A stretch of DNA of 64,000 bases, taken from Heliocybe sulcata (Eukaryota > Basidiomycota > Agaricomycetes > Gloeophyllales > Gloeophyllaceae). Positions 21,755 to 60,540 of this stretch are shown piece by piece. Position 1 is the first letter of the stretch; each line of letters begins with the position of its first letter. The notes beneath the pieces are model-generated. The model saw only the letters and a list, made by a program, of their open reading frames with translations, searched no databases and was not told where the DNA came from. Both the position numbers and the translations under genes were made by a program. The stretch covers positions 261,688 to 325,687 of the forward strand of contig ML213523.1 of assembly GCA_004369045.1 (NCBI GenBank). The letters run 5' to 3'.

Positions 21755-24700
21755 CTAGGCGAGTCCCTTCATGATATCCGCCGCTACAGAACAAGATGTT
21801 AACAATGACAGAAGTCCAAACCATCAGATAACCACTCACCCTGCTCGGCGATCGCGTAAGCCGTAGCTAGGATTGTATCCATGAGTCCAGCTGCACCCGT
21901 AGTTTGTCTTAAAGGACATACCTTGCGTATGTGACGCGAAATGGAGAGGCACGACCGATAGATCCGCTATCCGGATGTTGCTCGTGCCATACACCTATAC
22001 AGCATCATCAGCTCCGGGTCGCCTCCATCGCAATCCTGAAAGAACCCGCCTTCAACTTGGGATCGACGACGCCACCCTTCTCCTTCGGCAGCATGGAACA
22101 GGCGCCGGCAGTATCTGATAACATGATTCAGTCTCCCGCGTCGGAACAACAGACGTGCGGTGCTCACGGTACGTTGTTGACATATTTGCCTTGATCCAAT
22201 CTGTCCGGGACGACGTTTCAAAAACGTTCTGTCTCCGCAATAACTGCGAACTTACCACCAATCTGTTTGTCGCTGACGACCTCGGGTCCGGGGTTCACCT
22301 CCTTGACTATATAAAGCGATGTATTAGCAAGCATCCCTGTGTCAGGGTTTGTCTACTTACCGACCATGCTCTTGAATGGTTCCGTCTTGGGCAGGTCACG
22401 GGCGAACCTGACGGCCTCGATGAAGGTCTGCAAGTCTGAACAAGAGATCACTATACTCGTCTCTAGATGTGGAGAGGTGTTACTTACCTATCTCTTGCTC
22501 GAAGTAGTGAGGGTCGAATTCTGGGTCCTTGGAGGGATCCTTGGTTGTCGCGTGCTACGGGAGAATCGGTCAGGGTGAAAGCCCCGTAACTGGAAGTTTA
22601 GAGTTACTCACAATCGTACCCCTCGAGAACCAGTGGTTCATCAATGACAACACCGTAATATACTTCTTCCCTTCCTTTGGGGGGTCTGCAAACATTAATT
22701 GGTCGATCCTATCAATCTTGCACTCCGTAATCAAGACTTACTCGGCCTCGACAAGAATCCAGGGAAATGGATCATCTCGCATCCAGGAGAGAGTCTGTCA
22801 AGTCGCTCCAGCTGAATGTTATACTGCTCTTGCAAGCCAACCGGGTACTTGTCCAAGTTCTTCCTGATCTTCTCCTTGGCTGCCTTGTGGATCTCGTCCG
22901 CACGCTTCGAGAGCATCTGCAGCGGGACGAAGCAGAAGCCCACCATGCCCATGGTGAAGAGGCCCTGCGCCGCTTTGCTGCATGATATTATGAATGACGA
23001 TCTCGTCTGATATAGTGGGAAAATGCGACGCACTGGAGCTCGATGTGCTCGGACGCAACTTTTGGATCCCGCAGAACGTCCAGAGTCTCGAAGGAGACGT
23101 CGTCGCGGAGCTCTGGTGACTATTAAGTAGCGAACGACGTCCAATCCGAGAAACGTACCCCACGTCGTTCCAATAAAGCAGTGCTCTTGGATGTTCTCCC
23201 CGACAGTTGGCATATCCAGAACCAGCGGGATCTCAAGCTTCTTCAGTAGAGCCGGCTGGCCGATACCGGACAGCTCGAGCACCTGCGGGGTCTTGAGACC
23301 TCTGTAGGCAACGCTCAGCAGACGTCCAAACCACGATAAATTCGAATTTACCCTGCGGCGACGACCACCTCCTTCTTGGCGTGCACGTAGTAGTTCTGGC
23401 CGTTCTGGGAGAACTCGACGCCTGTAGCGGTGACGAGGCCATCCTTGCCCTTGGTCGTCTCGAGCTTGTTGACTCGTGCTTGCACAAGAACGTGCAGGTT
23501 CTTTCTGTGCAGGTTAGGGAGGAAGAAGGCCTGGAGAGATATATAAGATTCCGATCGACCTGTATAACCTCGGGGCACTCACAGTCGTAGCGTAAGTACG
23601 GGTGGAGGTCTTGGGATCTACGGTGTTCGTTCCGAAGAAGACTCCACGACACTACGTGCTCATGTTAGCCGCCGGACACCGGAGTGAATTGTAAGATGCC
23701 CGTACATCTCCGTCAAGCTGATAGATTTGGTTTAGTATGGTTTAGTCTCGGTATAATAGGGAATATCTCACAGGTTTCGGAGCAAGAGGAATACCACGGT
23801 TAATAAGCGTCTGATACCATTTCAGCATGAGAGGCATACTTCATATGGCTGCTGACCCACCTGTTGCACCTCGAGCTCGGCCGCGCTGATCTTAGCCGGG
23901 AAAGACGTCAACAAAGGGCCTGAGTCACAATAAATCTGTTACAGGACAGCTCTGATCCAGCTATTCGCGCACCTGAAGTCCCGTTGTTCCAGCCCTTGAT
24001 TTTCAGGCCGTGCTTTGTCACTATCTCTTCCGCGGGATAGATGCAGCTATAGACGGTTGGCGTCAGTGCAGTGTGTGAACCAGGCAGAGCAACGCGGGCT
24101 TACGTTTCAGTCCTGAGAGCATATTTCTGGTAGTTCTTCCAGTTCCATCCCGGGTTCCCAAGTCGTTCCCAATCTGCGGTTTACTAGCGTCAGCACGGGC
24201 GCGGCACCGAGAGCACGTTTCTCACCGTCAATCTCGTCCGCTGGTGGCTTGGTCCAGCACAAGAAGTTAATTCCAGAGCTTCCACCTAGGCCTTTTCCAC
24301 TAGGAACAGGATGAATACGAGCCACAAAGTCGACCGGCGTGAGCCCCCTCACCGAGACCATGCGTACTGCGTCCCATTGGCATATTTTTGAGGGATCTGA
24401 AAACGGTCTGTCAAGCATTACCACGTCTCGCTGACATTAACACTCACGGTCTTGAAGGCCCAGTCGTACTCGGGAATCTCAAATTGTGCTCCGTACGAAG
24501 CGGGACGAACTTGAGCGTAGATTGAGTAAGCCTGTGCCACCAAGGTGACTTAGCTACTCACGTAGTACCGGGTCGTCAATGTTGGCGCCTCCGGCCTCGA
24601 GCACCAGGACGGACACAGCAGGATCGTCTGTGAGTCTAGCAGCGACACATAAACCTCCGGTCTAGCATGTGCATAAGTCCACAGTCCAGATCTTGCGTGA

Positions 24701-24840
24701 TATCGAGATTGACTGCACTTACACCACCGCCTGAGAGACAGGGCTCAGAATACTTTTACTAGTACTGGAGGCGATTTGCACGCACCTATAATAACATAGT
24801 CAAATGACTTTCCAGTCACGTCTTCAATCTTAGTAGTCAT
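21755..24840 (-). CDS. GMC oxidoreductase A (FAD-dependent, intracellular)
   Basis: This is a glucose-methanol-choline family flavoenzyme that would oxidise an alcohol or sugar. There is no signal peptide: it starts MTTKIEDVTGKSFDYVII and the FAD dinucleotide motif is assembled from three exons, the middle one only 8 nt (24723-24730), to give IIGGGTGGL. Further GMC signatures are VLVLEAGGANIDDP, YDWAFKT, KGLGGSSGINFLCWTKPPA, and SQILELSGIGQPALLKKLEI-type sequence. The C-terminal part has YHTAGACSMLPKEKGGVVDP, GTSNIRIADLSVVPLHFASH and TQATAYAIAEQAADIMKG. The H in HTAG and the H of ASHTQ are the likely catalytic pair. About 18 introns of near 50 bp are present and I saw no break. It is transcribed divergently from DUF6534 protein A and has a paralog at 57489. 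Confidence 0.88.
24723..24730 (-). other. 8-nt microexon in GMC oxidoreductase A
   Basis: The minus-strand octamer GCGGTGGT is flanked by CAG and GTAAGT. It completes ATA-G/GC-GGT-GGT/ACC, that is IGGGT, the FAD-binding glycine triplet. The paralog has the same microexon at 57594-57601. Confidence 0.85.
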
Positions 24841-24926
24841 TGTACTTCTTGTGAAAGCGGAAAACTGGAACCGCGTTGAGCAGGGTACTGATCTTAGAAG
24901 AGTTAAAACGTCAAAGAGCGAGAACC

Positions 24927-24932
24927 TTTATA
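24927..24932 (-). promoter_or_regulatory. TATA box of GMC oxidoreductase A
   Basis: Minus-strand CATATAAAGG lies about 87 bases before the ATG. GMC oxidoreductase B has a TATAAAG about 40 bases before its start. Confidence 0.45.
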
Positions 24933-26326
24933 TGAAGGCCTCGGGTTAGCGGTAACCGAGCAACGTTCCTACCCCCCTTTCTGGTAGAACTTCGGTTGAG
25001 CGTCGTTACGTACTACGCTGGAGCTGGGGGTGCATTCTGCGTAGAGATGCGTACGAAGAGAGGTATCGCCATAGGAGTCTATGCGCGCTAGCAACCCTTG
25101 CTGCGAGAAGCAAGTTTGGAGCACCAAAGAACCGTCACGAGAACCTGGCACATATATTCAATCTCGCCCAGGAATCTACTCCAGATCGCCGATCCGAGAG
25201 TAGTCCCCATTTGCAGATTTATTCAGGATCTTGAACCGAGGTAGATCTGCTCCCTGCGCGCTCGACATAAACTGTGGATGCTACTACGAGCCATATTTTG
25301 TCAGCCGCAAGCAAGTACCAAATTACAACAAGTCCCACTTGCCCCACTGTTTGCCACACTCCGAGCGTCTGGATTGGTTCGTTCAGAATGGAAAGGAAAG
25401 GAAAACAAAAGGGGTCGGAAGCATTTTTCTTATGTTTATCCGGAAGCGCCACAGCCATCGCCACAGCCACTCCTCCGTACGAGCGGGTACGAGCGGGGAG
25501 GTACCTTCAAACATTTCCAAGCCGCGAGTCACAGGTCGACGTAGCCCATACAACAGCAAGTCATGATACGCTGCCAATGCTACCAATGCTAAGGCCGCTC
25601 CAGCACTGCAGCAGGAGTTGCTATGATAACCGCAACGTGGTTCCGGCAGTACTAGTTTTCCTACTCCTCTGTCCGTGGCGCTTCACTGCTACAGCCGTAT
25701 CATGCATTGCCTTGCCGCCGGTATTTGGGACAATGGGCCACCTGACCAACTGTAAAGTTCCCCATACTGTGCCGGATGTCCACAAATAAGGTAAAGTTAC
25801 TCGATCGCGTCTGGATTTCAAGCAGTTTTGCAGAAACCAAAACTTGCAGGACTTGGTAACCATCTTGGCGATCGGGTATTCTGGGGTAAGCGAGGGTCAT
25901 TCCAGGGGCAAATCGCGAAGGTCAGCGTATGGAAATGACTTCGCTTGCCCTCGCAAGAACCAGACGGCATTCTACCGCGCAGGGTAGAGGCATCCCTGTA
26001 ACAGATTGCGCCTACAGCCATAAGTGAAAGCGGGCTGCTGGATACTCAGCTGACTTACTTGCAGGCCTTGAGTCTTGACGGAGCTAACGGATTTCGCAAG
26101 TACTTACTACACCAAGCATTGGTCTCCCACACGGCGGTCGCAATCCCTCCAAAGATCTGGTGCGTAGTGTAGTACGGTTACCAAGTCTCGTTCGCTAACG
26201 CTCCATGCTTCTGCTCTTCTAATTTCACTTCGGTCCCGATCGTCCGTCCATCACATTAGCACACATGAATCGTAATGGAGCCACAGCAAGAACCGTACGC
26301 GTTGCGAACGATACTCCGTTGGCTGT

Positions 26327-26333
26327 TATATAG
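26327..26333 (+). promoter_or_regulatory. TATA-like site of DUF6534 protein A
   Basis: TATATAG lies about 100 bases before the proposed start codon at 26431. Confidence 0.35.
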
Positions 26334-26430
26334 GGCACCTAGGGTCGCTGTCGCCCGACCCTTCGCAGCGTGTTCCCTCCGACAGGCCTTTTTGCGCTGG
26401 ACTTAACTTTACGAGTTCGTGGAAACCACC

Positions 26431-28191
26431 ATGGGCAGTCCAGCAGCCGTAGTGTACGTGTTCAATTTGGTCAGCTGTCAAGAACGTCCCTAGATTCTAG
26501 CCTTTGCGTGCAGGCACGGTCCAGCCATCATCGGCCTCTTCTTCAATATTCTCCTGTATGGTATTATGATCACGCAGGTTTTCCTGTACTTCAAGTCATT
26601 CCCCAAGTACGTACCTTCAAGTCTGCCTCACACACGCCACTCATCCTGGCATAGAGACCGAACATGGATGAAGTTCTACGTACGGCAGTCTATCGCGCTG
26701 TCCGGTCATTCGTTGACAGTCGTTGACTTTAGGTGCTACTTCTATTTGTAGCCGACACTCTCAACTCCGTGTTGGACTGCATCTGGATGTATCAATCCAT
26801 AATCATACATTTCGGTGAGCCGCTCCAGGTTCCGTCCGCTATTAAAAGCTGACAACCTTGCTTTAGGGGACAACGACTTCGTCTCCAAGGCTAACTGGGG
26901 TGAGTACTGCCTCATAATGCAGCGATACCGTACTGACTGTGTACATATCAGCCTTCGCCGCGGATCCTGCTATGACTGTACGAGATCCTCGCTGGCCTTT
27001 CCCAGTCTCCACGCCTCACCGAGTTCTCACAGGGCATAATCGCGATGCTTGTTCAGTTTTTCTTCGCATGGAGAATAAAAATCCTGACTGGAAGCTGGAT
27101 CCTTGTCATCGCAGTAGTGATCGCTGCATTAGGCGGAGGCCGTGAGTCTCAAGGCCGCTCACCGTCTGCTATCGCTCACCTTCGTTCTTTCTCAGTGGGA
27201 GGAGTGGGAACCGCGATTGCGGTCACTATCCTTCCCCACTTTGCTGATTTCCAGATGTTCCAGCCTGTGGTAGTCGTCTGGCTCATTTCGAATGCGGTGT
27301 GCGACGTGCTTATTACCTCAGCGCTCACATGGCATTTGGTATGTAGGTCCTCTTCGAGAGGTCCCCTCTTCTGATTTTTTTGTGCCGTCAGAGGAGACAT
27401 AAAACCGGCTTCCCCGCGACCGATGATATCGTGAACAGGATCATTCGTTGTACGTACATATTTGGCACCGTGGAGCATTTTCTCTGATCCTTGCTTTCTT
27501 AGTGACTGTCCAGACGGGCATGTTGACGGCGGTTGTTGCGGTCCTCGATGTCGGATTCTTCGTGGGCAGTGTACGTCTCAATTGTAACACTTTCTCCATC
27601 TACCAACTGACATCAACTTTTGACAGCCGAGCGGCATGTCAGTACCACCCCGCATGAAAGCTCACCTGTTCTCTTACTCATTCTCCTTCTAGACACCTTG
27701 CCTTCAACTTCCCGCTATCGAAGTTATACACCAACTCTTTGATGTCAACCCTCAACTCACGCTCAGGGTGGAAGTACAACCGCACAACAGAGCCAAGCGG
27801 ACACGACCCCGAAGCTGTCTCGGGCGCCCATCTGTCCACGCATCGCGAGGCCTCGCGGCCGCGAAAGGTAGGGTACCTTCCTGTCGGGCATGAGTCCACG
27901 TCCAAGATCTAATGTCGGCGATAGCCGGGACCGGGCGTGTTGAACTTATCGCAAGGGCGAACGCCAGAGGTGAGCTCCGCGCCCCCGCTGCCTTATGAAC
28001 TACCTCTTACATGTGATCTCCAGGTCTTTGTGCACGTCGAGTCGCACCAGATGGTGGACATGGACAACAAAGGGTCGTCGACGCTGTACCAAGACGTCGA
28101 GGACGAACATGTGCGTTCTCATTTCGGTAAATCGCAGGGTACATTGTCCAATACGTCGTCAAGTCAGGACACTATGGCCACCCGTAAATAG
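26431..28191 (+). CDS. DUF6534 integral membrane protein A
   Basis: This is a seven-helix-type membrane protein of unknown function, common and expanded in Agaricomycetes. The first exon gives MGSPAAV and is spliced to VHGPAIIGLFFNILLYGIMI, the first helix. Later exons give DCIWMYQSIIIHFG, AMLVQFFFAWRIKILTGSWI, VGGVGTAIAVTILPHF, then PVVVVWLISNAVCDVLITSA with the typical NAVCDVLIT motif, LTVQTGMLTAVVAVLDVGFF, and the signature LAFNFPLSKLYTNSLMSTLN, after which a polar cytosolic tail follows. The tail continues through a spliced exon with VFVHVESHQMVDMDNKG to the stop at 28191. Introns are about 50 bp. It is divergent from GMC oxidoreductase A and has a close paralog at 53520-55244 in the opposite orientation. 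Confidence 0.85.
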
Positions 28192-29061: not shown

Positions 29062-31938
29062 ATGGCACCAGAAAGTATGTCTGAACTCGGGAAGCGTCTC
29101 CAGCGTCTCTCTCCCAAGTCGCGAACGCCAATATTGGCCTTGCTGGTTTCGATTCTTATCCTGCGGTCGCGTCTCATAGATGCACCAGGGCTGGTGTACA
29201 CTAGACTGAGGGAGGCAGCGAAGGGGAAGAGGCCAGCTCCTGAGGATATTGAAGAGGCTCTTCAGAAAGTCTACATCGATGAGGCGGACGGCAGCAAGAC
29301 ACTTCTCGTACCGTATGGCAAGAACGTGAACAAGGTAAGCAAGCATATCGAATGGGAAATGTGGAGGGTATGAACTGCTTGCTTCCAGATCAACATCAAG
29401 CCGACGCCACCTTCAGCACTTGCCTCCTCGTCCAAATCCTTCCCTTTGCTCTCCTCGTCACACAAACCTAGCTTGTCCCGGTCCTTCCTTCGACAGCTCT
29501 CCTCAATTCTGCGTATTGCATTCCCCTCACTGACATGCCGGGAATCCTTCATCCTTGTCCTTCATTCATTCTTCCTTATTCTGCGCACTGTTCTCAGTGT
29601 CGGTGTTGCGAAGCTGGATGGCCGAATTGTCAAGGACCTAGTGAGCGCGAATGGGAAAGGATTCCTCAAGGGCCTCGGCCTATGGTTCCTCCTCGCAATC
29701 CCAAGCACGTATACGAACTCGATGGTCTGTAGACTGACGACTCTTGTTTGACGGCTGAAATGACCCCATATACTTAGATCCGCCACCTCCAATCGAGCCT
29801 GTCTCTCCGCATGCGGACTCGCTTGACGCGTTACACGCACGACCTGTACCTCTCATCCTTCCCGCATCTGCGATATTACCGCGTGGGCTTAGAAGGTATT
29901 GCACATCCGCCCCTCTGCGCTTGACATCCTCACACGTCTCCCAGGTGGACTCGAAGGCGTAGACCAATATATCACCGCGGATATCGCCGCCTTCTTGGAC
30001 TCGCTCTCCACGCTCTAGTACGCTCCTTTTTCTGATCCATGTCCTCACATAACCCACCATTCCCAGCGGCAACCTCATCAAGCCATCCACCGACCTTGTC
30101 CTGTTTACGCTCTCCCTCTCGCGCTCGCTGGGCCCCTCAGGTACCGCCCTCCTGTTCCTCAACTACTACGTAACTGCGAGTATCCTGCGCGCGGTGACAC
30201 CTGCGTTTGGTCGACTTGCCGAAGTTGAGAGGAGGCTCGAGGGCGAATTCAGAGCGGGGGTTGGGAGGGTCGGCAGGGAGGCGGAGGAGATCGCGTGAGT
30301 CTTCCTCGAAGTAAAACATATCGCGCAGAACTGCTAACGGGATTCGTAAAGGTTTTACGACGGAGGCAAGAGGGAGCTCGACATTCTTTGGAGAGCGTAT
30401 ACCAGGCTCATCAAGCATGTGAACTCCATCTTCAAGGTATCCCTACTATTCCAAATTCGTAACGCTCCGTCCGGTGATATCTTACCGTCTTCGCAGATTC
30501 GTATTGCATATGAGTGGACTGAGGACTACGTCATCAAATACCTTTGGTCCGCAGCAGGCTACGGCCTCATCTCGATCCCTGTACTCATGGGGAAAACGCG
30601 ATCGCTTGGCGTGCAGGCCAGCCCATCATCCAAGCCGAATACGGACTCCGATGGACCGGACAATGCAGTCGCCAATCGTACCGAGAGTAAGTCCCAATGC
30701 TCCCCCTCACCAGCGCAAGACGCTCAAGATGAGACATAGACTACATCTCCTCACGCCGACTGCTTTTATCGCTCGCTGACGCAGGCGGGCGGTTGATGTA
30801 CGCCTACAAGGACCTCCTTGAGCTTTCCGGGCTCACAACGCGTCTGTACACCCTCCTGTCGACACTGCACAGCCTCCCGCGACTGCCAGATATCACGAAC
30901 GCATCCGACGAGATCACGCTCGAGCATGTCGACGTCGGCGTGCCGCCGCTCAATTTTGTGTTGGCAGACGATGAGTACGAAGTACAGGCGACGATCAACC
31001 CGCCGCTCGTGCGCGACCTGACGCTAAGGCTGCGGAAGGGCGAGCATTTGATGATTACGGGTAGTAACGGGGTGGGTAAGACTGCGATCGCAAGGGTGCT
31101 CGCGGGCCTGTGGGCACCTCAAGGGGGTGTGGTACAGAGGCCGGATGAGGTGCTTGTCGTACCTCAGCGGGCGTATATGGTCGCTGGGAGCTTGTTGGAC
31201 CAGTCGGTGTTCTACTATCTTCCTGAAAGACGCACACTGATGAGGATGGGGTGGTAGAATTATATACCCGCACTCGTACCCGCAGTACGTTAAGTCAGGC
31301 AAGACGGAAAAGGACCTGATGGAGATCCTCGAATCGGTTCATCTGGCGTACCTGCCTGCCCGAGAGGGTGGGTGGCGAACAAGAAAGGAGTGGAGAGACG
31401 TGCTCAGCGGGGGTGAAAAGCAACGGGTGAGTATCCAAGAACACTTCTACCGCAAAGGTTTATTGACGTTATGTGGTCAGATGGGCATGGCCAGAGTTTT
31501 CTATCACAAGCCCAAATTCGCAGTTTTAGATGGTAGGTCGGACCGCGTTAGCAATATTCAATCCTGACCCAGCTTATCGCGCTCTAGAATGCACGAGCGC
31601 TGTATCAAGCGACGTTGAAGGTCGTATGTACGAACATGCCAAGAGCCTCGGGATCACGCTCATCACGATTTCCTTACGGTAAGTCACAGGATTGCATATG
31701 GCCGAAATACGCTCATGTTGTGTTATATAGACCGTCGCTAACGCGGTATCATACTCAACTGTTGAGCCTCTCTGGTGATGGAAGCGGCCGGACGAGCCTG
31801 ACTCGCGTAGGCACCGCGGAAGAGCGTATGGGGATCGACCGAGAGATTATCAACTTGGAGAGCAAACTGGGCGAGGTGGAGAGCTGGCGGCAACGCTTGG
31901 AGGAGTTGAATGGGCAGTTGGGCATCCAGAAACATTGA
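29062..31938 (+). CDS. PXA1: Peroxisomal ABC half-transporter, ALDP/ABCD family
   Basis: ABCD half-transporters import very-long-chain acyl-CoAs into peroxisomes for beta-oxidation. The start [19 protein letters not shown] precedes a hydrophobic stretch, then helices of the ABC membrane domain: [51 protein letters not shown] and [20 protein letters not shown]. The nucleotide-binding domain has Walker [11 protein letters not shown], the Q-loop region [20 protein letters not shown] (joined over an intron), signature [13 protein letters not shown], and Walker [18 protein letters not shown]; the last two are also spliced. The C-terminus, [20 protein letters not shown], is helical. PXA1 or PXA2 assignment is uncertain; fungi need both halves. 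It sits between one copy of the duplicated pair and a mobile-element zone, and its last ~60 coding bases are partly repeated near 34885. Confidence 0.88.
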
Positions 31939-32239
31939 TAAATATCGGTGCTGTTGTCGTATGTAGGGGGGTGTGGATGTCGGCCACCATACCCTTGTAA
32001 CTGATTGTACACATGGCGGCTGAAGGAAACTGAGCGTTTAAGTACTGATGGTTCAGGAATGCCTTGTGCATATCCAAACATGATCCGCAAAGTCACGATA
32101 GAGTGTTGTGGTACGGCCTGACGCCTTTGCCTTGATATCACAGGACACGGAAAGAGACGTCAAAAGCAAAGGACATCATCGGATGAAAACTGTAAGCGCA
32201 TGAGGCCTTCAAGCGGTCGAGCATGTCTTCCCTCCACGT

Positions 32240-32285
32240 ACTTGGGAAGCTCCGACTGCCGTCGGTAACTGACCCCTCCTTTGAA
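32240..32285 (+). repeat. Dispersed repeat family 1, copy A
   Basis: About 42 bases from CTTGGGAAGCTCCGAC onward are nearly identical to the reverse complement of 53053-53099. The core contains a small hairpin, CCGAC-TGCC-GTCGG, followed by CCCCTCCTTT. Confidence 0.75.
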
Positions 32286-32573
32286 GTACAAAGGAAAACT
32301 ATTGTCATAACAGGGAAAGCACTGCTGATATACAGTGACATATGTAGAGATAGACAGCATCATTATGCACAGTTCTAGATCTATAGGCCAAGTATATACT
32401 TAAAGTTACAGTAAGTACTATACGGAATATGGATTATTGGGGACAATACTAGAGAGTGTAAGGCGGACGAGCACCGCGATCACGAAGGATTGATAGCTAC
32501 ATACCATTGAAGAATGCCTGGCCCTCTCCGAAGGTGATTCCATGGGTCTCGCCGGGGGCACTCTTCTTCTTTC

Positions 32574-33677: not shown

Positions 33678-34028
33678 CTTCTTTCGCGGAATGACAATGG
33701 GTTGGTGCAGGGTGATGAGACACGGAGCAAAAAAATGTCCACCCTGTGAATGTCAGCTGAAGGTTTCTTCAATTTGTTGGAAGGGATTGACCAGTGAGAC
33801 AAGGTAAATAGACCTGCACTAGCACATTTTCCAGGTGAGGCCGATACATCTTGGGCTTGAGGCCGCCCAATTTGGATGGACTGTCACGAGAAATCCATGC
33901 CACTATTCATTGATGCATCTGCATGCAGAGGATACAACCAAAGGTCAACCACTCAATACAAAAGAAAAGAAATATTGCTGTTGCCGTGAGGAAAAACCCT
34001 GGAAAAGAGAAAGAGCAGACATAATGAA

Positions 34029-34637: not shown

Positions 34638-34741
34638 GGAGGCAACAGACACTCAGTATTTTTCGGCAGATACTGAGCATCCTTCTCACTCACAGCCTTT
34701 GCGGATTTGAGAATAACAGGCGGGAAGCTCGGTCGTACAAC

Positions 34742-34846
34742 AGCGCCACAGTGTGCAAATATGAGCAAATTCGGCAAATGCCGTGATGGTGGGTCGAAAA
34801 GTGTGCCGCAATTCGAGGGTGGAGAACCCCTCCAAAAGGAGGGGCA
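34742..34846 (-). repeat. Dispersed repeat family 2, copy A
   Basis: Read on the minus strand it starts with the hairpin CCCCTCC-TTTT-GGAGGGG and matches 51887-52000 over about 105 bases with scattered changes. A shorter third copy lies at 52103-52182. Confidence 0.7.
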
Positions 34847-34884
34847 AACATGCATATCCGCGACTGCCGGGGCGGACGGAACGT

Positions 34885-49403: not shown

Positions 49404-51554
49404 ATGCCCGTTAGAATATCCATGTTGGACGACCCGTTCTCGGAATTTGTGTCGCCACCGGCGAACGAGACTGCAGCACAGCGTGAAGTGCGCTTGCGCG
49501 AGGAGGAGGAAGCGAAGCGAGTTTCCGAAGCAATCGACGAGGAGATCGACCGGCAGAGGGCGGAGCAGAGGCGGGAGAAATGTGTCAAGGTCCTCTTACT
49601 AGGTACGTCAACCATTTGAATTTATGGATATGCGTTGACTTCGGCCATGAAGGTCAAAGTGAATCAGGTAGTTTGGTCTTCTCTGCACACACAGGTCACG
49701 TCTGATATCCCTTGACTATGAGGGAAATCGACTACTCTCAAGAGTGAGCAGATCCATGTCATGAACATTCTCCCAACTGACTATTATCTCAGATTTCCAG
49801 CTCATGAACTCCCGAAAGGTATGTATCAGTGTGGCTTCCTACATCGTTCACATACGAAATTTGGACAATAGGCCTTCCGTGCAGAGCGAGCACAATGGCG
49901 GACGGTAATCCAACTGAACATCGTCCGGTCTTTCCGACTTATTTTCGAAGCCATGGCGGAAGCGCAGGCCGCCTCCACCTCTCCCAATGTGTCCCCCCGC
50001 CTCCGACCCGCAGATGCCCCCGACGTCCCTTACAACCCCGATATGCCCCGCCTCTCGCCCGAGCTCTTGCTCCTCAAAATGAAGCTCTCCCCGCTCCTCC
50101 AGATCGAAGACGTTCTCCGGCGAAAACTGGACCCGGAAGTCTCCTCGGTATTCGGCAGCGCCCTCCTCACCTCCGTGACGAACATCCCGTTCCCAGACCG
50201 CCAGAAGAAAGGCATGAAGGAGATTGCTCTGAGCTCAAGAGCATTGGGAACGAAGTTTAGCAGGCTGTGGAACGGCGAGGACAGGAGGAGTAGTGATATG
50301 CGGGACGAAGGCCTGGAACCTGACGAGCCTACGCACGTCTTGCAGGCGTGTAGCGAAGATATGATTCGGCTCTGGAAGGACCCGATCGTACGCGAGATAC
50401 TTGATCGGCAAAAGTTGAGGCTGGAGGAGCTGCCTGGATTGTGAGTTGCAGTCATGTTGATTAGTCCGAACTAATCCACCGTATCTCGCAGCTTCCTCGA
50501 TTCACTGGAGCGAGTAACCGACTTGCGATACATGCCTACGGACGAGGATATTGTCCGCGCAAGAATCAAGACGCTTGGAGTCACGGAGTACCGGTTCACC
50601 GTCAGTGGTGGTGGGTGTATCTCCCTTCCCTGGACACCTGCAAGCTCACACGGCCGTAGTCGGAAACACCGTCGCTCGGGACTGGCGAGTATACGATGTT
50701 GGTGGACAGAGATCCTGCGTGCGTGATTCTGTGAATTCAGTGTTTGCGTGAATCTGAGCGTGAGCTATGCTTTCAGAGAGGTATGCATTTTCAACGGGCA
50801 GGTAAGGATGTAATATTGATTCCGCCGTATAGCGGCCTGGGTTCCGTTCTTCGACGATATGGACGCCATCATCTTCCTGGCCCCCATCAGCTGCTTCGAC
50901 CAAGTCCTCGAGGAGGATCCTACCGTGAACAGGCTGGCAAGTACCTCCCTGCATCTTCCAATTCAATATCTCATCCGTAATTTGGAATATGCAGGAAGAC
51001 TCCGTTCTCCTCTGGAAATCCCTCGTCTCCAACCCTCTACTCGCCAAAACGAACATCATCCTCTTCCTCAACAAATGTGACATCCTGGAGCGCAAGCTCA
51101 CGTCCGGGATCAAGCTCGCCAAGTATATCGTCTCATATGGCGACCGCCCTAACGACTTTGAGAGCACAGCGGCATGTGAGTGTCATCGTCCTCGCAACCC
51201 GCATCCAAGCTTCCCGTGTTCCCTGCATCTCATGCTAATGCACCCGGGTGGGTGATCTGCAGATCTGCGGAGAAAGTTCGCCCAAATACACAAGGACCAC
51301 TCGCCCCAGAAGAGGGGCTTCTATGCGCACTTCACGTCCGTCGTGGTATGTTCCCATCTCTCTCACACCCATTCTATCTTTGTACTTATTTTCCTGATTT
51401 TTCTCCTTGAAAGAATATCGAATCGACGTCGAAGATCCTCGTTGACGGTACCGATGTTCTCTACCGTCCCATGCGTAGTCGCTGACTAACGCTTTGTGCA
51501 GTACAAGAAATGGTGCTCCGGGCGAACCTCAGAGGTACAGGCCTCATATTATGA
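49404..51554 (+). CDS. Heterotrimeric G-protein alpha subunit, long divergent type
   Basis: Twelve exons (49404-49602, 49653-49667, 49723-49743, 49793-49818, 49872-50440, 50492-50610, 50660-50722, 50833-50936, 50995-51175, 51263-51345, 51414-51447, 51502-51554) total 1467 nt, exactly 488 codons plus stop. Motifs: G1 GQSESGKST, G3 DVGGQRS, the switch and following AWVPFFDDMDAIIFLAPIS, G4 NKCD, and G5-like HFTSVV. The P-loop is split over 15- and 21-nt microexons. The protein is about 135 residues longer than classical G-alpha; the extra sequence lies in the helical domain (around SPNVSPRLRPADAPDVPYNP). The C-terminus, LRGTGLIL, lacks the usual CGLF/CGIF-type ending, as in many divergent Agaricomycete G-alphas. 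The N-terminal MGxxxS myristoylation signal is absent. One intron (50937-50994) starts with GC. Confidence 0.92.
49653..49667 (+). other. 15-nt microexon of G-alpha
   Basis: The 15 bases supply QSES of the P-loop GQSESGKST; flanks are AAG and GTAGTT. It is needed for the frame. Confidence 0.88.
49723..49743 (+). other. 21-nt microexon of G-alpha
   Basis: The 21 bases supply GKSTTLK of the P-loop; flanks are GAG and GTGAGC. Frame closes only if both microexons are used. Confidence 0.88.
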
Positions 51555-51886
51555 TCTGGCCTGCGACGCTCTCAAATTCTCTTGTCAAGATTTCGTGTTG
51601 TGACCGAGACAAGCCGCGATATTTGTAGTCGTAACGACAGCGCGTACGAGGGCACGTACCAATGATGTATATCCATCTTTCAGCCCTCGTATTGCGAGAT
51701 AGGGGGTCAGGAAGTGCTATATAGGGCTCAGTGAGCGAGAGATAATATCATAGGTATACTATTATTATCCCGCTAAGGGAGATAGAGGATTAGAGCCGGA
51801 CGGTAGAGACGAGAGTTGGGAAGTTGGGCGGATTATTGTCACTCTTAGGCACGGATACGTCCGAGCCTTGGAGTCCAGTCTCGAAT

Positions 51887-52000
51887 GCCCCTCCTTTTGG
51901 AGGGGTTCTCAAAACCCGCATTATGGCTCACTTTTCGACCAACCGGCTTTTGCCGATTTTGCTCGTATTTGCTCACAGTGGCGCAGTTTCTTCGGCCGGT
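51887..52000 (+). repeat. Dispersed repeat family 2, copy B1
   Basis: It begins with CCCCTCCTTTTGGAGGGG and matches the reverse complement of 34742-34846. Similar sequence upstream (GGAGTCCAGTC) also precedes copy B2. Confidence 0.7.
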
Positions 52001-52102
52001 GAAAGCATTAATGGAAAGCATTAATGTAGATAGTTGCCTGCATGGAGCGAGAGCATACTCTCATACCAAAACCAAGTGTCCAGACTCCAGTCCTCCGTTA
52101 TA

Positions 52103-52182
52103 CTCCTCCTTTTGGAAGGGCTCTCCGCCCTCGACTTCCGGCACACTTTTTGACCCACCATCACGCGTGCATTTGCCAAATT
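52103..52182 (+). repeat. Dispersed repeat family 2, copy B2 (short)
   Basis: CTCCTCCTTTTGGAAGGG starts a shorter and more changed copy about 215 bases after copy B1, in the same orientation. It continues with GCACACTTTTTGACCCACC. Confidence 0.6.
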
Positions 52183-53052
52183 AATTACTTCCGGTTCATA
52201 ATATAATCAGGGAACAATAATCACTGAGATGTGAAAAAAGGAAGGGAAGGAAAGGAAAGGAATGAAAAATTGGAGTCGGCTCGTAAGAGCCCTTTAAACA
52301 ATCCAATTCGAAGTTTAGAGACTGTCGGACTACGCCATCTGCCTATCATGCATCATGTGGTGATGTATCGATTGTTTTTCCCGGACTATGACCAGGCGGT
52401 TCACGTAGTAGCTCAATAAAATCCCGCTCAGTATTACAGAGGGTTTGAACCCTGCTCATTACACCCGAGTGACACCAAATTCGAGTATAACTATACTGGA
52501 GACTAGGGTCCCATTCCCACAGTATATAGTAAAGCTCGAGAACCTTAATCGTCTACCCCAGCTGAATCCCCAGCCGGGTCAGCGACCTTATAGCCTGTAT
52601 AGAGTATTGCCCGGTAACCCGATGATGCATGTCTGATCCAAATTAAGTTACGTGCGGCGCGAACGCCGAGCGGTGCGATTGGCATCTCGTTAACGTCGTC
52701 CGAGTCGTGCACGACGTCGACGAGTGTATGTCCTCCACTGGGCTAAAAGAAGGCAAACAAAATTGCAAAATCATCATATATTGCGTGTATACCTTTCAAA
52801 GATCATTTTTAGGTACATATGAGACGCACAGGGTAGCAAAGATGGTTATAAGACGGGCATTCCTACCTCCCGCCACATGTTCGGGATTTGCCATTGGGCG
52901 TCAGATTCAATCTCCGGCTCACTGAGTGTCACCGAGCAGGGAGTAAGGCTAGACAATCCACTAAGAAGTGCTGTTTGGGAGGCCTTTGGCATTGAACATC
53001 GCTTGTATCAAAGTCTTGTTGAGCTCATGTAGTGTGTTTAAAATTAATTTAA

Positions 53053-53099
53053 CTTAAAGGAGGGGCCAGTTACCGACGGCAGTCGGAGCTTCCCAAGTT
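53053..53099 (-). repeat. Dispersed repeat family 1, copy B
   Basis: The reverse complement matches 32240-32285 over about 42 bases with one or two changes. Confidence 0.75.
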
Positions 53100-53519
53100 G
53101 TGAAGAGTGCCTGTCGCAATGTGAAGACTCTCGGTTAGCATTGTCGCGAAGGAGGACATAAGAGTGCGACTGCCGAGCGCAGACCACAAGGAAAAGTACA
53201 TACAGGCGGTTTTGAGGCCATATCATGGCATGGGCCAAGAGGCTCATCCGAGACTTATCGCAATTTTCCTTATTCTACTTTCCTTTCCTTCTATTTTCTT
53301 CTACGAGTGGATCATCAATGGTGTGATCATATAGCCGCGCACCAATACGAATAACAAGGTTGTAAAAGACTGTGTAAGATACTGACAACTGATCTGGCAA
53401 TTAGTGGGCATGTAATGTCTCAATAACCCGAATCTCATCGGCCTAGACCGACTCTACAGGGAATTGCCTGCAACGTCCGGCATATTAGCATATTTCCTGA
53501 CATTGCTAACGGAAGAAGC

Positions 53520-55244
53520 TCACATCTTCCGCGTTCTCTCGTGGTACGCGACGTCACCCTGGTCGCTGTGGATGGTGGTGTTCCCCTTGTTGTCTATATC
53601 CACCATCTGGTGCGATTCAACGTGCACGAAGACCTAAACAGGGACGCATGTCTACCAGGCGATCTTGATAAGAGCACTGCACGGTTCCTCACCTCGGGGG
53701 AGTGACCTGCTTGCGAAAGATTGAGTACCTTCCGACTGCGAGTATCTCGATGATCTGAGATAGCCTCCGAAGGCCCGTTGCTCGGTTCGGTGGTGCGGTT
53801 GTACTTCCATCCTGTACGTGAATTGAGTGTTGACATGAGCGAGTTGGTGTAGAGCTTCGAGAGCGGGAAGTTGAACCCAAGATGACTGCGGGCACATGTC
53901 ATGAATCAGCTGTCAGTGGCGTTAAAAGGAGGACTGGAAGTCCTGTTCTTACAGTCCAGATGACTAGAAGTCAAACCGACAATGATTAGATGGGACGTGC
54001 TCTGGAAGCCAGTTGAACGATACTTACGTCGGCCGCGAAGAAGGCAATGTCAAACAGCGCAACGATACAGGTCAGCATACCCGTCTGCACGGTCACTGTT
54101 GGGCAATCAGTGACCGTATACAGTAATGTATGTATGCTGCGCACGTCTAATAATCTTGTTCACGATATCATCCGTCGCAGGGAAGCCTGTCCTATGTCTC
54201 CTCTATGAATGCAAGGCACGTAAGTCTCCCCATATCTGCCGGATTAATGTAGGCCTTACCAAATGCCATGTAAGGACGCCTGTAATGATGACGTCGCAGA
54301 CGGCATTGGAGACAAGCCAAACGATTACGATTGGTTCGAACTTTTGGAACTCGACGAACTTCGGCACGAACTTGATGGCAACAGCCGTTCCTACGCCGCC
54401 AACTAAACACGGATAAGTGAGTAAGAAGGCCAGCAAGGAGTTATCAGGGACAACGTGCAGCATCCACCGAAAGCAGCGACTACGACGAGACCCACTAGCC
54501 ATCTGTTCCCAGTAAGGATATGGATCCTCCAGGCAAAGAACATCTGGACGAGAGCCGCGATAATTCCCTGAGGGGCGTGTCACTCTACTTGCCAGACTCA
54601 GCGGTTTTCTGCACATACCGTAAGAGCGGGATCTGCCGGTAGCGGTGCCGATAAGTTAGTGTCTGCAGATGTACACTTCCGAAACGGGACTTGTACCTGC
54701 TGCGAAGACTTGAAGGGCACGGTGGATGTCAGCGGTAGGGATGCGAGCAGGACGGAGACTCACTCCAGTTCGCACTCGACAGAAACTCGGCGTCGCCTGA
54801 ATGTGAATGGATGGGGAATGGTATGACGAATCAGAGGTCAGCTCGACCCACCGAAATGGATGATCACAGATTGGTACATCCAGACGCAGTCGAAGAACGA
54901 GTTGACCGTGTCTGCAAGGAACAATATGGCAACCTACAGCCGCGGCAGGGGTCCACTAAGAGACCTAAGGATGGGCAGAGTGACGGCAGTCTTACATAGC
55001 ATTTCATCCACTTGCGATCGCTTGTTATCCGTCAGATCCTCCTGCAAGTAGTTTCAAAGGATCACTTACTTGGGAAACGAGTTGAAGTATAGGAAGGTCT
55101 GTGTAATCATGATACCATAGAGAAGGACGTTGAAGAAAAGCCCAATCAGAGCGGGTCCATGTCTGCATAGCGACCCAACTCAGCGCGGTCTACTAGCGCA
55201 GGTAACGAATGTTGAACTTACGCTACCGACGCTGGACTGCCCAT
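53520..55244 (-). CDS. DUF6534 integral membrane protein B
   Basis: This is the paralog of protein A at 26431. The first exon reads MGSPASVA and is spliced to HGPALIGLFFNVLLYGIMIT and QTFLYFNSFP. Further exons give FDCVWMYQSVIIHFG, VGGVGTAVAIKFVPKFVEFQ and IVIVWLVSNAVCDVIITGVL. The next exons give LTVQTGMLTCIVALFDIAFF-type sequence and the signature LGFNFPLSKLYTNSLMSTLN. The tail matches that of protein A (WKYNRTTEPS), and is completed by a last exon with VFVHVESHQMVDIDNKG ending at the TGA. Intron positions are the same in A and B wherever I could compare them. I saw no break. Function is unknown; it is divergent from GMC oxidoreductase B, as protein A is from GMC oxidoreductase A, so the two proteins may work in one pathway. 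Confidence 0.83.
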
Positions 55245-56169
55245 ATTGACGCACCGGCGAACACAATACGAGGAGCACGTAAAGTTTATGCAGAGCAGTC
55301 CCTGTTGCCAACCTTATAGGTCGCGATACATAACTCGACCCCATTATTCTCCGCATAGATACATCGGCCTGTGGAGGCCCATTTGCGAATAACGCAGATC
55401 TGCCATTTGAAGAAGATCGATGGCATAAAGAGGAACTTCGCAGGCTGGAGGATACCTGGATACGACCAAGCGACCCTGTCCGCAGGAACAAGAGCCTTCA
55501 TAAACTCATCGTAATGGAAGGAACACTGTGTGAATACGTCCGCGCGGATTCTTCAAGGAGGAATGTCATTGGCCTCGGTTCCACATCTTCATAGTCGCTC
55601 TGCACCGTTTCTGAGATCCGGTCCAATGGATGCATGCGAGTCTAGAGAATATCGACTAACCATATAGACCGACCAAAGGGGCCACCTTCTTGTCTTCTCG
55701 CGCCGCTACTGTATGGCGGCGTTCATACTTGAGAGGTGAGATATATCTCCATATTAACCGATCAGAGAAGAGATCAATCTGGGGATATAGTACCCAAAGC
55801 GCTCCGTCCGGTTTGGAGTCCGCGCCACTGGGACATCGCACCCCAAAGCCAAGCTTGGCAGAGACGAGCAATGCTTCATAGTGCGAAGGAAGAACAAGCG
55901 GTTTTGAATATTGGTAGCTACCCGCCTGATCGTGCGCGCATGCGTAGCGTCACCTTGCATGTGCATCCGCCGGGCATCCCTAACGGACGTCGCGGACAAA
56001 TCTGCCTTCTGCAGGGCCTCTGGAAAGGTTTCTGAGTGCTGCTCAGTGCCCGACAAGTTACGACGCCGTTTCCAGCAATAGGACCCGCACTTTGCACAAT
56101 CACGTGATACGACGGCTACGGTTTGACAATATTTTGACAATATATTACTGCAAGGGAGCCCCAAGAAGA

Positions 56170-56265
56170 TTCACCTATAGCGAAGCGGTTAGCTTCATGG
56201 CGATTCCGGGCGCTTCATGCGGCTGGTCGCGGTTCGATTCTTGCCGGGGTCACGTACTATTTTTC
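56170..56265 (+). ncRNA. tRNA-like Pol III unit (box A, box B, T-run), probably degenerate
   Basis: TAGCGAAGCGG (56178-56188) matches box A exactly, GGTTCGATTC (56231-56240) matches box B, and TTTTT (56260-56264) would terminate Pol III. Box spacing is 53 bases. The T stem appears to lack one base and the acceptor stem does not pair, so a functional tRNA is unlikely. Architecture equals the unit at 13335-13430. Confidence 0.4.
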
Positions 56266-56304
56266 TTCTTTGCGTCCGACGACACAGTGCGCTACATGGC
56301 AGAC

Positions 56305-56375
56305 GGTTAGGTTGTTTGGGTTAGAATGTTTGGGTTAGAATGTTCGGGTTAGGCTGCGGTTAGGATGAGGGTCTT
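56305..56375 (+). repeat. Degenerate telomere-like repeats
   Basis: GGGTTAGAATGTT occurs twice in tandem, preceded by GGTTAGG and followed by GGGTTAGG and CGGTTAGG, resembling decayed TTAGGG repeats with a ~14-base unit. Confidence 0.55.
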
Positions 56376-57444
56376 GGGATAAGTTCAAGGGGGGGTCCGG
56401 GGGGAACACCCCGGTTGCTTAGGGTCAGGCTTGTATATTGATAAAGACTTCAAAACACTTTTTACAAGATACTCTATCTAGTAAAAAGAACACGCTATGC
56501 ATGGCGCATGATGCCTTAATGAATGCAGCATCCTCGTACTAGTACTGGCTTGCGAGCGTGGGACGTGAGAAGTCACGTGATTGTGCAGAGTGCGGGTCCT
56601 CTTGGGGGAGTTTACGACGCCTGCAGTGTCTGCTGCACGTGCTAGCAAAGCATAGTACTGGGAGAAAAGATACTCCGGCTTTGTCTTACGTAACTACCGG
56701 TCGAAGACGGCGAACATTAAGTTCTGATTACTATGGCAAGGAATGACCATGACTGAACTCACCGCACTGGCCGAACCAGTATTCTGGTCACTGGCATGCA
56801 TTCCTAGCGCCAAGGAAGACATCACAGGGCCAAATCTAACCGAAATTCGGCTAAGTGCCGTCCTCGTATAGTAAGTCTGCAACCTCCAACTGCAGTTCGC
56901 GCGCGCCAATCCGATCTATCCTCGTTCTGTCCCTTCCCGAACTAAGTCCTTGGAACTAGCTTACAGTGCTGCCCAAGACGTCTTCAGGTTGCGTTTTCGA
57001 ATGGGATGACCGCGTCACGGTTGATCTTCCGAAGGGCGGAAGTGTCGCGATTAACGGTTAGTAGGAACTCGAAGTCAACTGAACAACTGGGTCTCCGCAG
57101 GCTTCGTTGCCAACCCCTTTTCTGCATGGTTCTTCACGCTTAGAGTCGCTCTTTGGCGAACGCGCGCGGTGGCGAGCTGTGGGTTTGGCCCTATTCCTCG
57201 TGGCAGATATTGACGATGGCCTATTTTTTACATACTTGCTACATAGGCGCCAGATAGCTTCGAAGATCTGCGCGCTTCGGGGAGTAGGGCGAGACTGGCG
57301 TTCTCTCCAGCCGCAGCTCCCCGAATGGATGCTTCTCCGACGTCTGATACCATGTAGTGCCTTGTCACGTAACCAAAAGTAGCCTACACTATCCCCGAAC
57401 TCCAAAAGAGTTTACTCTCCGCCGACATGAGCCCAAGAGATGTG

Positions 57445-57451
57445 TATAAAG
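57445..57451 (+). promoter_or_regulatory. TATA box of GMC oxidoreductase B
   Basis: TATAAAG lies about 40 bases before the ATG at 57489. Confidence 0.5.
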
Positions 57452-57488
57452 ACAACGTGCATTGTAACCGGACAGCGCAAAGTGCAGA

Positions 57489-60400
57489 ATGGCCACCAAG
57501 CTCGAAGACGTTCCTGGCAAGACTTTCGATTTCATTGTCATAGGTGAATGATTGCGCTGCTGCATTGAGAGCAATGAACTAATGCTTGTGTAGGTGGAGG
57601 GGTAAGGCGGTTCCTTCATCGATTCCATGCATGCTGACATGCTTGTAGACTTCAGGTTTGACTCTGGCCGCTCGGTTGTCTGAAGATCCTGCCGTGTCTG
57701 TACTCGTTCTAGAGGCAGGCAAAGCAAATATCGATGATCCTTTCCTACGCAAGTTGTCTCTGAAGCTCTGAGTGATTCCATCCTGATGCGCGTCGTCACA
57801 GTCCGCCCTGCATCATGGGGCAGTCATTTTGGGAATCCAACCTACGACTGGGCCTTCAAGACGGTACGTCCCACTGGATGGTCAAATTGCATCCACAATT
57901 TCTGACCTGTTGTGATAGAACTCTCAAAAGCACTGCAATGGCAACGAGTTCCTGTGGAACAGGTACGTATACATGCTCTTGATCTCGAGAATAACCCTCA
58001 GGCAGGCCTTCAGAGGTAAAGGCCTAGGCGGAAGCTCCGGTATAAACTTTTTGTGCTGGACAAAACCACCTGCAGCCGAGATTGATGGTAGGTGAACGTT
58101 CATTAATACTGGAAGCCCACAAAATACATCCCATTTCCAGATATCGAGAGGCTCGGCAATCCGGGTTGGAACTGGAAGAACTACGAAACATACTCGCATA
58201 GGACAGAAACGTATGAGAATCCCGCTCTAGGACTCTGAGACGACTCTCACGTCTGTCTTGTGTTAGTTGCATCTATCCTACACCGGAGATTGTAACGAAG
58301 CACGGCCTCAAGATTGAGGGATGGAAGAATGGCACTACAGGTTGTCAACTATATTGGAGCTGACATCGGCGGCGCGCTAAATCCCGTTTAGGTCCTCTCT
58401 TAACTTCATTCCCTGCGAAGATCAATGCTGCAGAGCTCAAGATTCAGCAGGTCCGTAATCGTGCCCCACTACGTCCATGAGTACTCACATCCTTCCAGAC
58501 GCTGCTCAATGTTGGGCTGCCTGCTGCCAAGAAGCCGGTGCGCATCCATTCGTGATAACGTCTTAATTGTAGACTGACAAATTTTCCCAGTTGGGTGGTG
58601 ACGTACGAGACCTGTATGACACATTATGGAGTGAATAATCTGACAGAAATTCGTAGCCGTGCGGTGTCTTCTTCAGTACAAACACCGTAGATCCGAAAAC
58701 ATCCACTCGTACCTATGCCACCACGGTAAGTGCATTTGCCATCGGCTCGAGCATGGCTCTGATGAGTAAACAGGCATTCTACCTCCCGAACGTGGATCGC
58801 CCTAACTTTTCGGTGCTTGTGGAAGCGACCGTAAACAGGCTCATCACGACCAATAATGGCGACGGACTTGTCGTTGCTACCGGCGTTGAATTCAAACACA
58901 ATGGTCAACGGTACACCGTCCAGGCGGGGAAAGAGGTCGTCCTATGTGCTGGGTAAGTATTCGGATAAGAAGGATGATTTGGACACTTGACGATTCGGCA
59001 AAATCACAGGGGCCTGAAGTCATCACAGATATTAGAGCTTTCGGGCTTCGGTAATCCCTCTTTGTTGGAGAGTCTTGATATCCCTGTTGTCTTGCCTTTA
59101 CCCGCTCTGGGGGAGAACGTGCAAGAGCACTGCTTCACTGGAGTTACCTGGGGTGCGTCGCCAACAGACATATGGTAACACTTACTCATACCGGCCTCGC
59201 AGAACTTCGCGAAGATGTTACCTATGACACGATTGATATCTTGCGGGACCCTAAAGGGGCAGCAGAGCACCTTGAGCTCCAGTAAGCAACGATCTTGGTG
59301 CATGTGGCTTGCGCTGGGCTCACAGGACATTCGCAGTGCCAAAAATGAGGGTATCTACACCTTGGGCATGGTCGGGTTTTCTTTTGTCCCATTGACCATG
59401 CTGTCAAAGCGAGCGGATGCGATATACAAGGCTGCAAAGGAGAAGATTGAAAAGAATGCGTCTAAGTATCCGCCCGGTTTGCTTGAGCAGTACCGGATCC
59501 AGTTGGAGCGACTGGATAGAGGAGCGCCTGGATGCGAGTTCATTTCCTTCCCGGGCTTCTTGTCCCGGCCCAGTAAGTTCTTTTTTGACTACGCGTGGGT
59601 AGAACGGGGTTTGACGGATTTGTAGACCCGCCGCAGCCTGGAAAGAGGTACCTCACGATATTAGTGTTACAGAACCACTTCTTCTCGAGAGGGACTATTG
59701 TGAGATACGCTTCCCTCCGGTCGCCTACCCGCCCGCTGATATGTTCTCTAGCACGTCAAATCGAAGAATCCTGATGATGATCCCGCGTTCGACCCTCACT
59801 ACTTCGAGGAGGAGATTGGTATGGCGCAGAGTATATCCACCGGTTCCTTCCGTCTGATCATTACCTGCACAGACCGGCTGACGTTCGTCGAATGCGTCAA
59901 GTTCGCCCGGAACCTGTCGAAGACAGCACCGTTCAAAGACCTCGTTGGTATGACACATGGGCTTCTGGTGTTTATCATTGTTTACCGAAACCTCTTCAGT
60001 GCAAGAGGTCAACCCGGGACCAGAGATCACCGCCGATGAGGAAATTGAAGGTAAAAAGTCCCTATTATATTCTAGAATGCTAAATGCCGAGACTGGACAG
60101 ACTGGTTGAAATCTTACATGATGACCACGTATCGTAAGTGTATGAGCGCATCGAGATGAATTATACGTAACCATTCCTTGCACAGACACCATCGGATCAT
60201 GCTCCATGCTTCCCAAGGACAAAGGTGGTGTTGTCGATCCCAAATTGAAGGTTAGTCGTACCTGTTTCCTGTCCGAAGGACGCTCATTCGGAGCTCCGTT
60301 GCCTGCAGGTCTACGGGACAAGTAATATCAGGGTGGCCGATCTCTCCGTCTTGCCCCTTCATTTTGCTTCTCATACTCAATGTAAGTCGCTCTACCTAGT

Positions 60401-60540
60401 TCTACGAGAGACGTTACTGAACCCGATTAGCGACGGCTTACGCCCTCGGCGAACAAGGTAAGGCCAAAATGGCCAACGTGATTGACAGACACTGATTCCT
60501 TGTGATCTCAGCTGCCGACATCATCAAAGGTGTTATATGA
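57489..60540 (+). CDS. GMC oxidoreductase B (FAD-dependent, intracellular)
   Basis: This is the paralog of the gene at 21755. It starts MATKLEDVPGKTFDFIVI with no signal peptide; the FAD motif IGGGTSGLTLAARL is built from exon 57489-57543, an 8-nt microexon (57594-57601) and exon 57649-57748. Later exons give RPASWGSHFGNPTYDWAFKT, RGKGLGGSSGINFLCWTKPP, IEGWKNGTT, SSQILELSGFGNPSLLESLD and GENVQEHCFTGVTW. The last part has MLPKDKGGVVDPKLKVYGTS, followed by ASHTQSTAYALGEQ and AADIIKGVI. The first four exons sum to 225 nt, exactly 75 codons. The intron after the third exon starts with GC (GCAAGT), where paralog A has GTGAGT. About 18 introns are present and no break was seen. Substrate is unknown. 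Confidence 0.87.
57594..57601 (+). other. 8-nt microexon in GMC oxidoreductase B
   Basis: GTGGAGGG is flanked by TAG and GTAAGG and gives the second and third glycines of IGGGTSG. It is the same microexon as in paralog A. Confidence 0.85.

Follow-up and report, generated by a model that had tools for sequence, protein, structure and literature searches.

Background

Mushrooms have a very large family of multi-helix proteins, DUF6534 (PF20152), which is uncharacterised. These proteins have been put forward as a class of G-protein-coupled receptors (GPCRs) of the Agaricomycotina, from machine learning and docking of G-alpha, in a study whose relevant sections report, for the largest of its clusters of seven-helix proteins, 3,893 DUF6534 sequences and themselves state that the two prediction programs diverged (PMC12842992). 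A gene cluster of Laetiporus is described, in the sections dealing with it, as holding a DUF6534 gene along with a gene for a flavin adenine dinucleotide (FAD)-binding protein, and three similar clusters elsewhere are characterised there through other common genes (PMC9602373). Two further papers, in the passages that name the family, merely list DUF6534 as a domain (PMC8955403; PMC12387923). A search of the open access literature found no paper describing a pairing of DUF6534 genes with genes for GMC oxidoreductases.

Here we analyse a stretch of 64,000 nucleotides of Heliocybe sulcata (contig ML213523.1, positions 261,688-325,687; C21:261688-325687 in our labelling), which we call the window and which carries two such pairs, A and B. 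Labels of the form C1, C7 or C16 denote contigs of the same genome (31.6 Mb, 51 contigs), and coordinates without a contig label are positions in the window. All results on pairing, trees and copy number come from this one genome, in which head-to-head GMC/DUF6534 pairs were found at six places, namely A and B on C21 and one each on C16, C7, C15 and C11. This linkage is the sole demonstrated part of the mechanism that we propose below. A head-to-head partner that recurs gives a tangible lead on what the DUF6534 proteins sense or handle, and guesses about receptor and ligand become testable through it.

Head-to-head pairs of GMC and DUF6534 genes

Genes were modelled with a purpose-written gene finder using a strong intron penalty, because a weak penalty over-predicted, and later with the aid of homology. 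In pair A, the FAD-dependent GMC oxidoreductase gene GMC-A (21755-24840, minus strand; spliced model of 25 exons and 598 amino acids) is separated from the gene for the membrane protein DUF6534-A (26431-28191, plus strand; spliced models extending to 28311, with a stop read at 28191; PF20152) by 1590 bp (24841-26430), a putative shared promoter. In pair B, DUF6534-B (53520-55244, minus strand; homology-aided model; PF20152) and the FAD-dependent GMC oxidoreductase gene GMC-B (57489-60540, plus strand; spliced models with 25 exons; PF00732 and PF05199) enclose 2244 bp (55245-57488), or about 1.7 kb without an inserted element of 545 bp. Our spliced models reproduced the coordinates and strands that a preliminary description had given for the four genes, and they bore out its statement that both pairs stand head to head, the second mirroring the first. 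The shared intron positions reported there, including an 8-nt microexon in the GMC genes, also agree with the exon lengths. All 25 of these are equal between GMC-A and GMC-B, the 8-nt and a 12-nt exon included, a match that requires splicing of a 51-nt intron of GMC-B (57963-58013), and ten exons are of equal length in DUF6534-A and DUF6534-B (23, 93, 25, 82, 33, 109, 143, 58, 68 and 11 nt). The 8-nt exon was found in GMC models on C14 and C11 as well (the C16 model has no resolved 5' end), and is therefore a trait of this GMC branch and not one special to the window. Protein identity between A and B is 71.7% for GMC and 69.4% for DUF6534.

The pair loci were identified by tblastn and Pfam searches of the genome, together with gene models. 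Grouping the match rows gave at least 27 DUF6534 loci (E up to 0.01, some under the curated cut-off) and at least 29 GMC loci, both counts being lower bounds, with genes split at introns by the six-frame search. Outside the window, the pairs lie on C16 (DUF6534 at 57-59k, GMC at 60.5-63.8k, 1628 bp apart), C7 (DUF6534 at 752.8-754.8k, GMC at 756.3-759.2k, 1521 bp), C15 (GMC at 334.6-337.1k, DUF6534 at 337.7-339.3k, 641 bp) and C11 (pair at 437-443k, with DUF6534 at 437.4-439.3k and GMC from about 440.2k, 891 bp). The intergenic region measures 1.5-1.7 kb at four of the six places, with B counted without its 545-bp element; these lengths depend on the gene models. Neighbouring GMC and DUF6534 genes in another orientation were not visible in the locus lists of this genome, except on C11, where another GMC gene ends about 4.5 kb beyond the 3' side of the DUF6534 gene, tail to tail. 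Under rough assumptions (27/31, 40/40 or 60/45 loci among 9,400 genes), chance would give 0.045-0.144 divergent pairs, with a probability of 0.001-0.009 for two or more and of 2e-7 to 2e-5 for four or more. The gene density of the window (16 models scoring at least 6, 20 in total) extrapolates to 7,900-9,900 genes.

Where flanking genes were compared (A, B and C16), they are unlike, and the unit common to these three consists of the two genes. Pairs A, B and C16 are of one descent. Between 56 and 71% of the four-fold sites differ among them, so that synonymous sites are saturated, and nonsynonymous divergence (dN) is 0.13-0.23, which together point to old copies under purifying selection. For GMC and DUF6534 respectively, dN is 0.206 and 0.214 between A and B, 0.214 and 0.228 between A and C16, and 0.132 and 0.168 between B and C16; partners copied together thus show alike protein divergence. 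The DUF6534 protein of C7 is 60.6% identical to A and 58.8% to B. Its partner is only 28.1% identical to GMC-A, and the seven best PDB matches of this enzyme are alcohol-oxidase-type chains (best E 7e-145), so that C7 looks like a separate joining. In trees of 13 DUF6534 and 17 GMC models, all from this genome, the GMC of C11 joins the A/B branch (support 100/99) and that of C15 joins one from C40, whereas the DUF6534 proteins of C11 and C15 group together (100/97, with long branches flagged). Two to four independent joinings of GMC and DUF6534 genes seem likely. The suggestion of the preliminary description that the oxidoreductase and the membrane protein act together is strengthened by head-to-head pairing at six places, with unlike flanks at the three compared.

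A possible enzyme-receptor cassette

Early models of GMC-A and GMC-B, that of GMC-A with a wrong N-terminus, both match PF00732 (GMC_oxred_N) and PF05199 (GMC_oxred_C) above the curated cut-offs. The FAD motif GxGxxG is present near the N-terminus (GGGTGG/GGGTSG). GMC-A aligns over both domains with the FAD-glucose dehydrogenase chain 4ynt, its YHT and SHT falling on histidines of 4ynt in both active-site regions, and GMC-B carries the same YHT and SHT; we take these histidines to be active-site residues. GMC-A begins MTTKIEDVTGKSFDYVIIGGG, and no signal peptide is evident by eye.

DUF6534-A and DUF6534-B match PF20152 at 84.7 bits (E=1e-23) and 83.6 bits (E=2e-23), above the cut-off of 28.2 bits. 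Hydropathy plots have six peaks in all five DUF6534 proteins of the A/B branch and five or six in the other eight; by eye, an amphipathic seventh segment is suspected. Lysine and arginine residues number 0, 4, 1, 1, 0, 5 and 5 per loop in DUF6534-A, none of them before the first helix, a distribution compatible with an N-terminus outside and a tail inside.

We tentatively propose that the pairs are a recurrent enzyme-receptor cassette, in which the DUF6534 protein would sense a small molecule that its flavin partner oxidises; the sensing, the ligand and the co-expression are what we infer. The two genes would be transcribed head to head from the shared intergenic region, and this shared upstream region would co-express both. 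The membrane protein would be a chemosensory GPCR-like receptor and the enzyme would oxidise the receptor's ligand or a precursor of it, and the cell would thereby make or remove the very signal that it senses. We count in favour of such a cassette that the linkage has been kept in A, B and C16 through duplications old enough for synonymous saturation, and that a DUF6534 gene of the same branch is paired with an alcohol oxidase at C7.

Several results weigh against the cassette. The linkage is demonstrated in one genome only, and close relatives occur without it: the DUF6534 gene at C16:259k, whose product is 70.0% identical to A, faces a non-GMC gene, and the C14 and C23 GMC genes of the A/B branch have no DUF6534 gene upstream, with none Pfam-listed on those contigs (upstream of the C14 gene is a same-strand model without Pfam match). 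The DUF6534 and GMC trees conflict for C11 and C15, so that these two places do not descend from a single pair whose genes stayed together. About 20 kb of C11 (C11:425k-445k) contain four GMC loci, including the DUF6534 partner, and a GMC neighbour is therefore less surprising there. In 15 comparisons among the six intergenic regions, the best match was never above the best of 20 shuffles, with one tie (C16-C11), and no 10-13-mer was found in three or more of the six regions. A profile of six DUF6534 members found no PDB match among solved structures up to E 10. Pfam receptor families gave no match to the six members either; DUF6534 was found in all six, together with two extra weak matches, neither of them to a receptor.

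Some of these results would also be expected if there were no functional link, the pairs being inherited neighbours that were copied together and kept by chance. A, B and C16 come from one ancestor and count once, the pairs have no conserved promoter sequence in common, some relatives are unpaired and C11 is rich in GMC genes. However, A, B and C16 are still paired despite saturated synonymous sites and intergenic DNA and despite unlike flanks, the C7 enzyme is of another subfamily, and C15 and C11 are two deeper instances. We consider chance retention unlikely.

The missing receptor match also counts for another role of the membrane protein. Instead of being a receptor, DUF6534 might carry the substrate or product of the oxidoreductase, as its transporter or its partner in the membrane, and several membrane helices and the adjoining enzymes of small-molecule metabolism would fit this. 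The distribution of lysine and arginine, compatible with an outside N-terminus and an inside tail, argues against this, as do the machine learning and G-alpha docking that favour a GPCR in the sections of PMC12842992 devoted to them. A transporter seems a doubtful alternative to the receptor of the proposed cassette.

Origin of the mirror image

In the preliminary description, the mirrored pairs were ascribed to inverted duplication of a block of 9-13 kb, which included two repeats lying beyond each DUF6534 gene. Both repeats (1 and 2) are terminal parts of dispersed transposable elements, and the two elements in the window differ in kind. Across the genome, the repeat-2 query gave 24 match rows and the repeat-1 query 22 (the query included, some loci twice). 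Counted from the coordinates, 12 loci besides A and B have both repeats within about 2.5 kb, with order and orientation kept. On the A side, the element spans 2.6 kb (32240-34846, or 32.24-34.85 kb; repeat 1 at 32240-32287, repeat 2 at 34739-34846), and one of its seven scanned open reading frames (33179-33472) contains a hAT dimerisation region (PF05699). At its repeat-2 end the identity is 98% with a copy on C1 but 81% with that of B. The repeat-1 end, 48 bp long, shows 96% identity with the B end and with several others, and 99% with copies found on C4 and C1. The B-side element of about 1.2 kb (51886-53098; repeat 1 at 53052-53098, repeat 2 at 51886-51988 and 52105-52182) is a whole copy (51880-53100); C15 carries another of full length that is 96% identical, and C24, C20, C14 and C34 have long matches. 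The mirrored repeats are explained by two separate insertions in opposite orientation, and the claim that they were part of a duplicated block was not confirmed.

Two features accompany these elements. The hAT-bearing element is flanked on either side by a 60-bp direct repeat (31907-31966 and 34913-34972, 85% identical). The 545-bp element in the intergenic region of pair B (56068-56612) is non-autonomous, with a 32-bp inverted repeat at its ends and a direct repeat of about 10 bp at its borders; a 98% identical copy was found on C25, and the same ends lie 3.4 kb apart on C22. By eye, part of it resembles the A and B boxes of tRNA, and TTAGGG-like repeats are present; Rfam and ARAGORN scans of the window, this element included, gave no match.

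Apart from repeats 1 and 2, the similarity between the arms is confined to the genes. Comparison of the window with itself found arms A and B similar solely in coding exons and the two repeats, and the intergenic regions and flanks of A and B had no similarity beyond these. Proteins of one arm, the pairs excepted, had no match in the other; beyond the two pair families, two tandem terpene-synthase-like genes alone encode similar proteins within the window. The window proteins had no match in 11.5 kb of C16 flanks.

The trees do not join A with B. DUF6534-B is sister to the C16 copy with support 100/99 and GMC-B to that of C16 weakly, with 80/73. A clade of A and B was rejected by the DUF6534 data (p=2e-6), by the GMC data (p=0.026) and by an alignment of the two joined, whose outgroups are composite rows (p=0.0055). 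Smaller sets in which A and B were held together gave p=8e-5 for DUF6534 and p=0.040 for GMC, and the small GMC tree is drawn with the order of A, B and C16 unresolved. The tree signal against A plus B thus appears modest for GMC alone and strong for DUF6534. Since A and B have other closest relatives among the paralogues of this genome, and since the homology covers two genes with saturated synonymous sites, the inverted block duplication is not supported. C16, with its pair and the lone DUF6534 gene at 259k, may perhaps be a segmental duplicate of the window: A and the C16:259k copy group in the best small tree, but at 47/48 support.

A single 9-13 kb block duplicated in inverted orientation with its repeats, copy A later keeping or gaining the ABCD gene and the hAT element, would account for the mirror-image order of pairs 27 kb apart and for the identical exon lengths. 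We nevertheless regard it as very improbable, because the repeats are dispersed element ends of differing kinds, the intergenic regions and flanks have no homology, and B groups with C16. The 27-kb spacing favours some local event, and the two genes may have been duplicated locally in inverted orientation long ago, after which all other similarity was lost and the relative of B was dispersed to C16. The mirror image of A and B is an old arrangement of family members and not one recent inverted block duplication, which corrects the tempting story of a mirror duplication carrying its repeats.

Other partners and neighbouring genes

For seven DUF6534 genes without a GMC partner (C16:259k, C5, C11:1093k, two on C12, C26 and C8:1305k) we read the upstream side. 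Two of the seven stand head to head with another enzyme gene, for an O-methyltransferase (C5:29701-33700) and for a non-ribosomal peptide synthetase (NRPS)-like adenylating reductase (C26:227601-231600); one C12 gene has a reductase two genes off on the same strand, and the upstream sides of the other four held nothing noteworthy. These cases might be read as a large orphan class of mushroom receptors, many of whose genes stand head to head with a gene for a ligand-making or ligand-destroying enzyme, the enzymes being swappable (GMC, alcohol oxidase, O-methyltransferase, NRPS-like reductase). This wider generalisation is rather unlikely; if true, the chemistry of the ligand could be read from the neighbouring gene in a receptor family that is otherwise unreadable.

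The genes around the pairs are varied. The window contains two tandem terpene-synthase-like genes (6398-9945, 52% identical), a name that we assume from their sequence, and a predicted membrane-like protein without Pfam match (42358-43400). Three of its genes are of fatty-acid type: a presumed desaturase-like gene (583-2421), an ABCD-type transporter (29062-31938; PF06472 and PF00005) and a fatty acid desaturase with cytochrome b5 (35438-37131; PF00487 and PF00173). A G-alpha subunit gene (49422-51485; PF00503) adjoins DUF6534-B, with the dispersed element between them. As a signalling link this was rejected, since about 15 G-alpha loci (from 39 rows) are present in the genome and the contigs that carry the other four pairs have none, and we regard its position as coincidence. 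In the flanks of the C16 pair (C16:50001-56000 and 64501-70000) there is an SMP-30/gluconolactonase gene (PF08450), along with models that we take to resemble an epoxide hydrolase (no Pfam match), a hydroxyisobutyrate dehydrogenase and a PRISE-type reductase.

Such surroundings raise the possibility that DUF6534 genes are frequent members of specialised-metabolism clusters, GMC being one cluster enzyme of many. The enzymes that face DUF6534 on C5 and C26, the reductase near the C12 copy, the gluconolactonase and further models of enzyme type next to the C16 pair, and the tandem terpene-synthase-like genes at a distance of about 12 kb from GMC-A are consistent with this, as is the Laetiporus cluster with DUF6534 outlined in the pertinent sections of PMC9602373. 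However, unrelated genes lie between the terpene-synthase-like genes and GMC-A, and just two genes are common to A, B and C16. Cluster membership is quite possible, if on balance doubtful, as an alternative to the two-gene cassette.

Comparison with known systems

The window proteins resemble the candidate DUF6534 GPCR class in the PF20152 domain, in multi-helix topology and in the absence of lysine and arginine ahead of the first helix; a paired GMC enzyme is not mentioned in the sections of PMC12842992 on that class, and the receptor role is putative in both. Pth11-like (class 12) fungal GPCRs of biosynthetic gene clusters, as presented in the corresponding part of the same paper, are alike in that a receptor-type gene lies beside metabolic enzymes and a metabolite is suggested as ligand. 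Unlike these, the window has a two-gene head-to-head unit and another membrane family. The window GMC proteins share Pfam domains, the FAD motif and both histidine regions with FAD-glucose dehydrogenase (4ynt), glucose oxidase and aryl-alcohol oxidase, but differ from these in having no signal peptide evident by eye. The partner of the C7 DUF6534 gene is of the alcohol (methanol) oxidase type (6h3g) and, at 28.1% identity to GMC-A, belongs to a different GMC subfamily from that enzyme.

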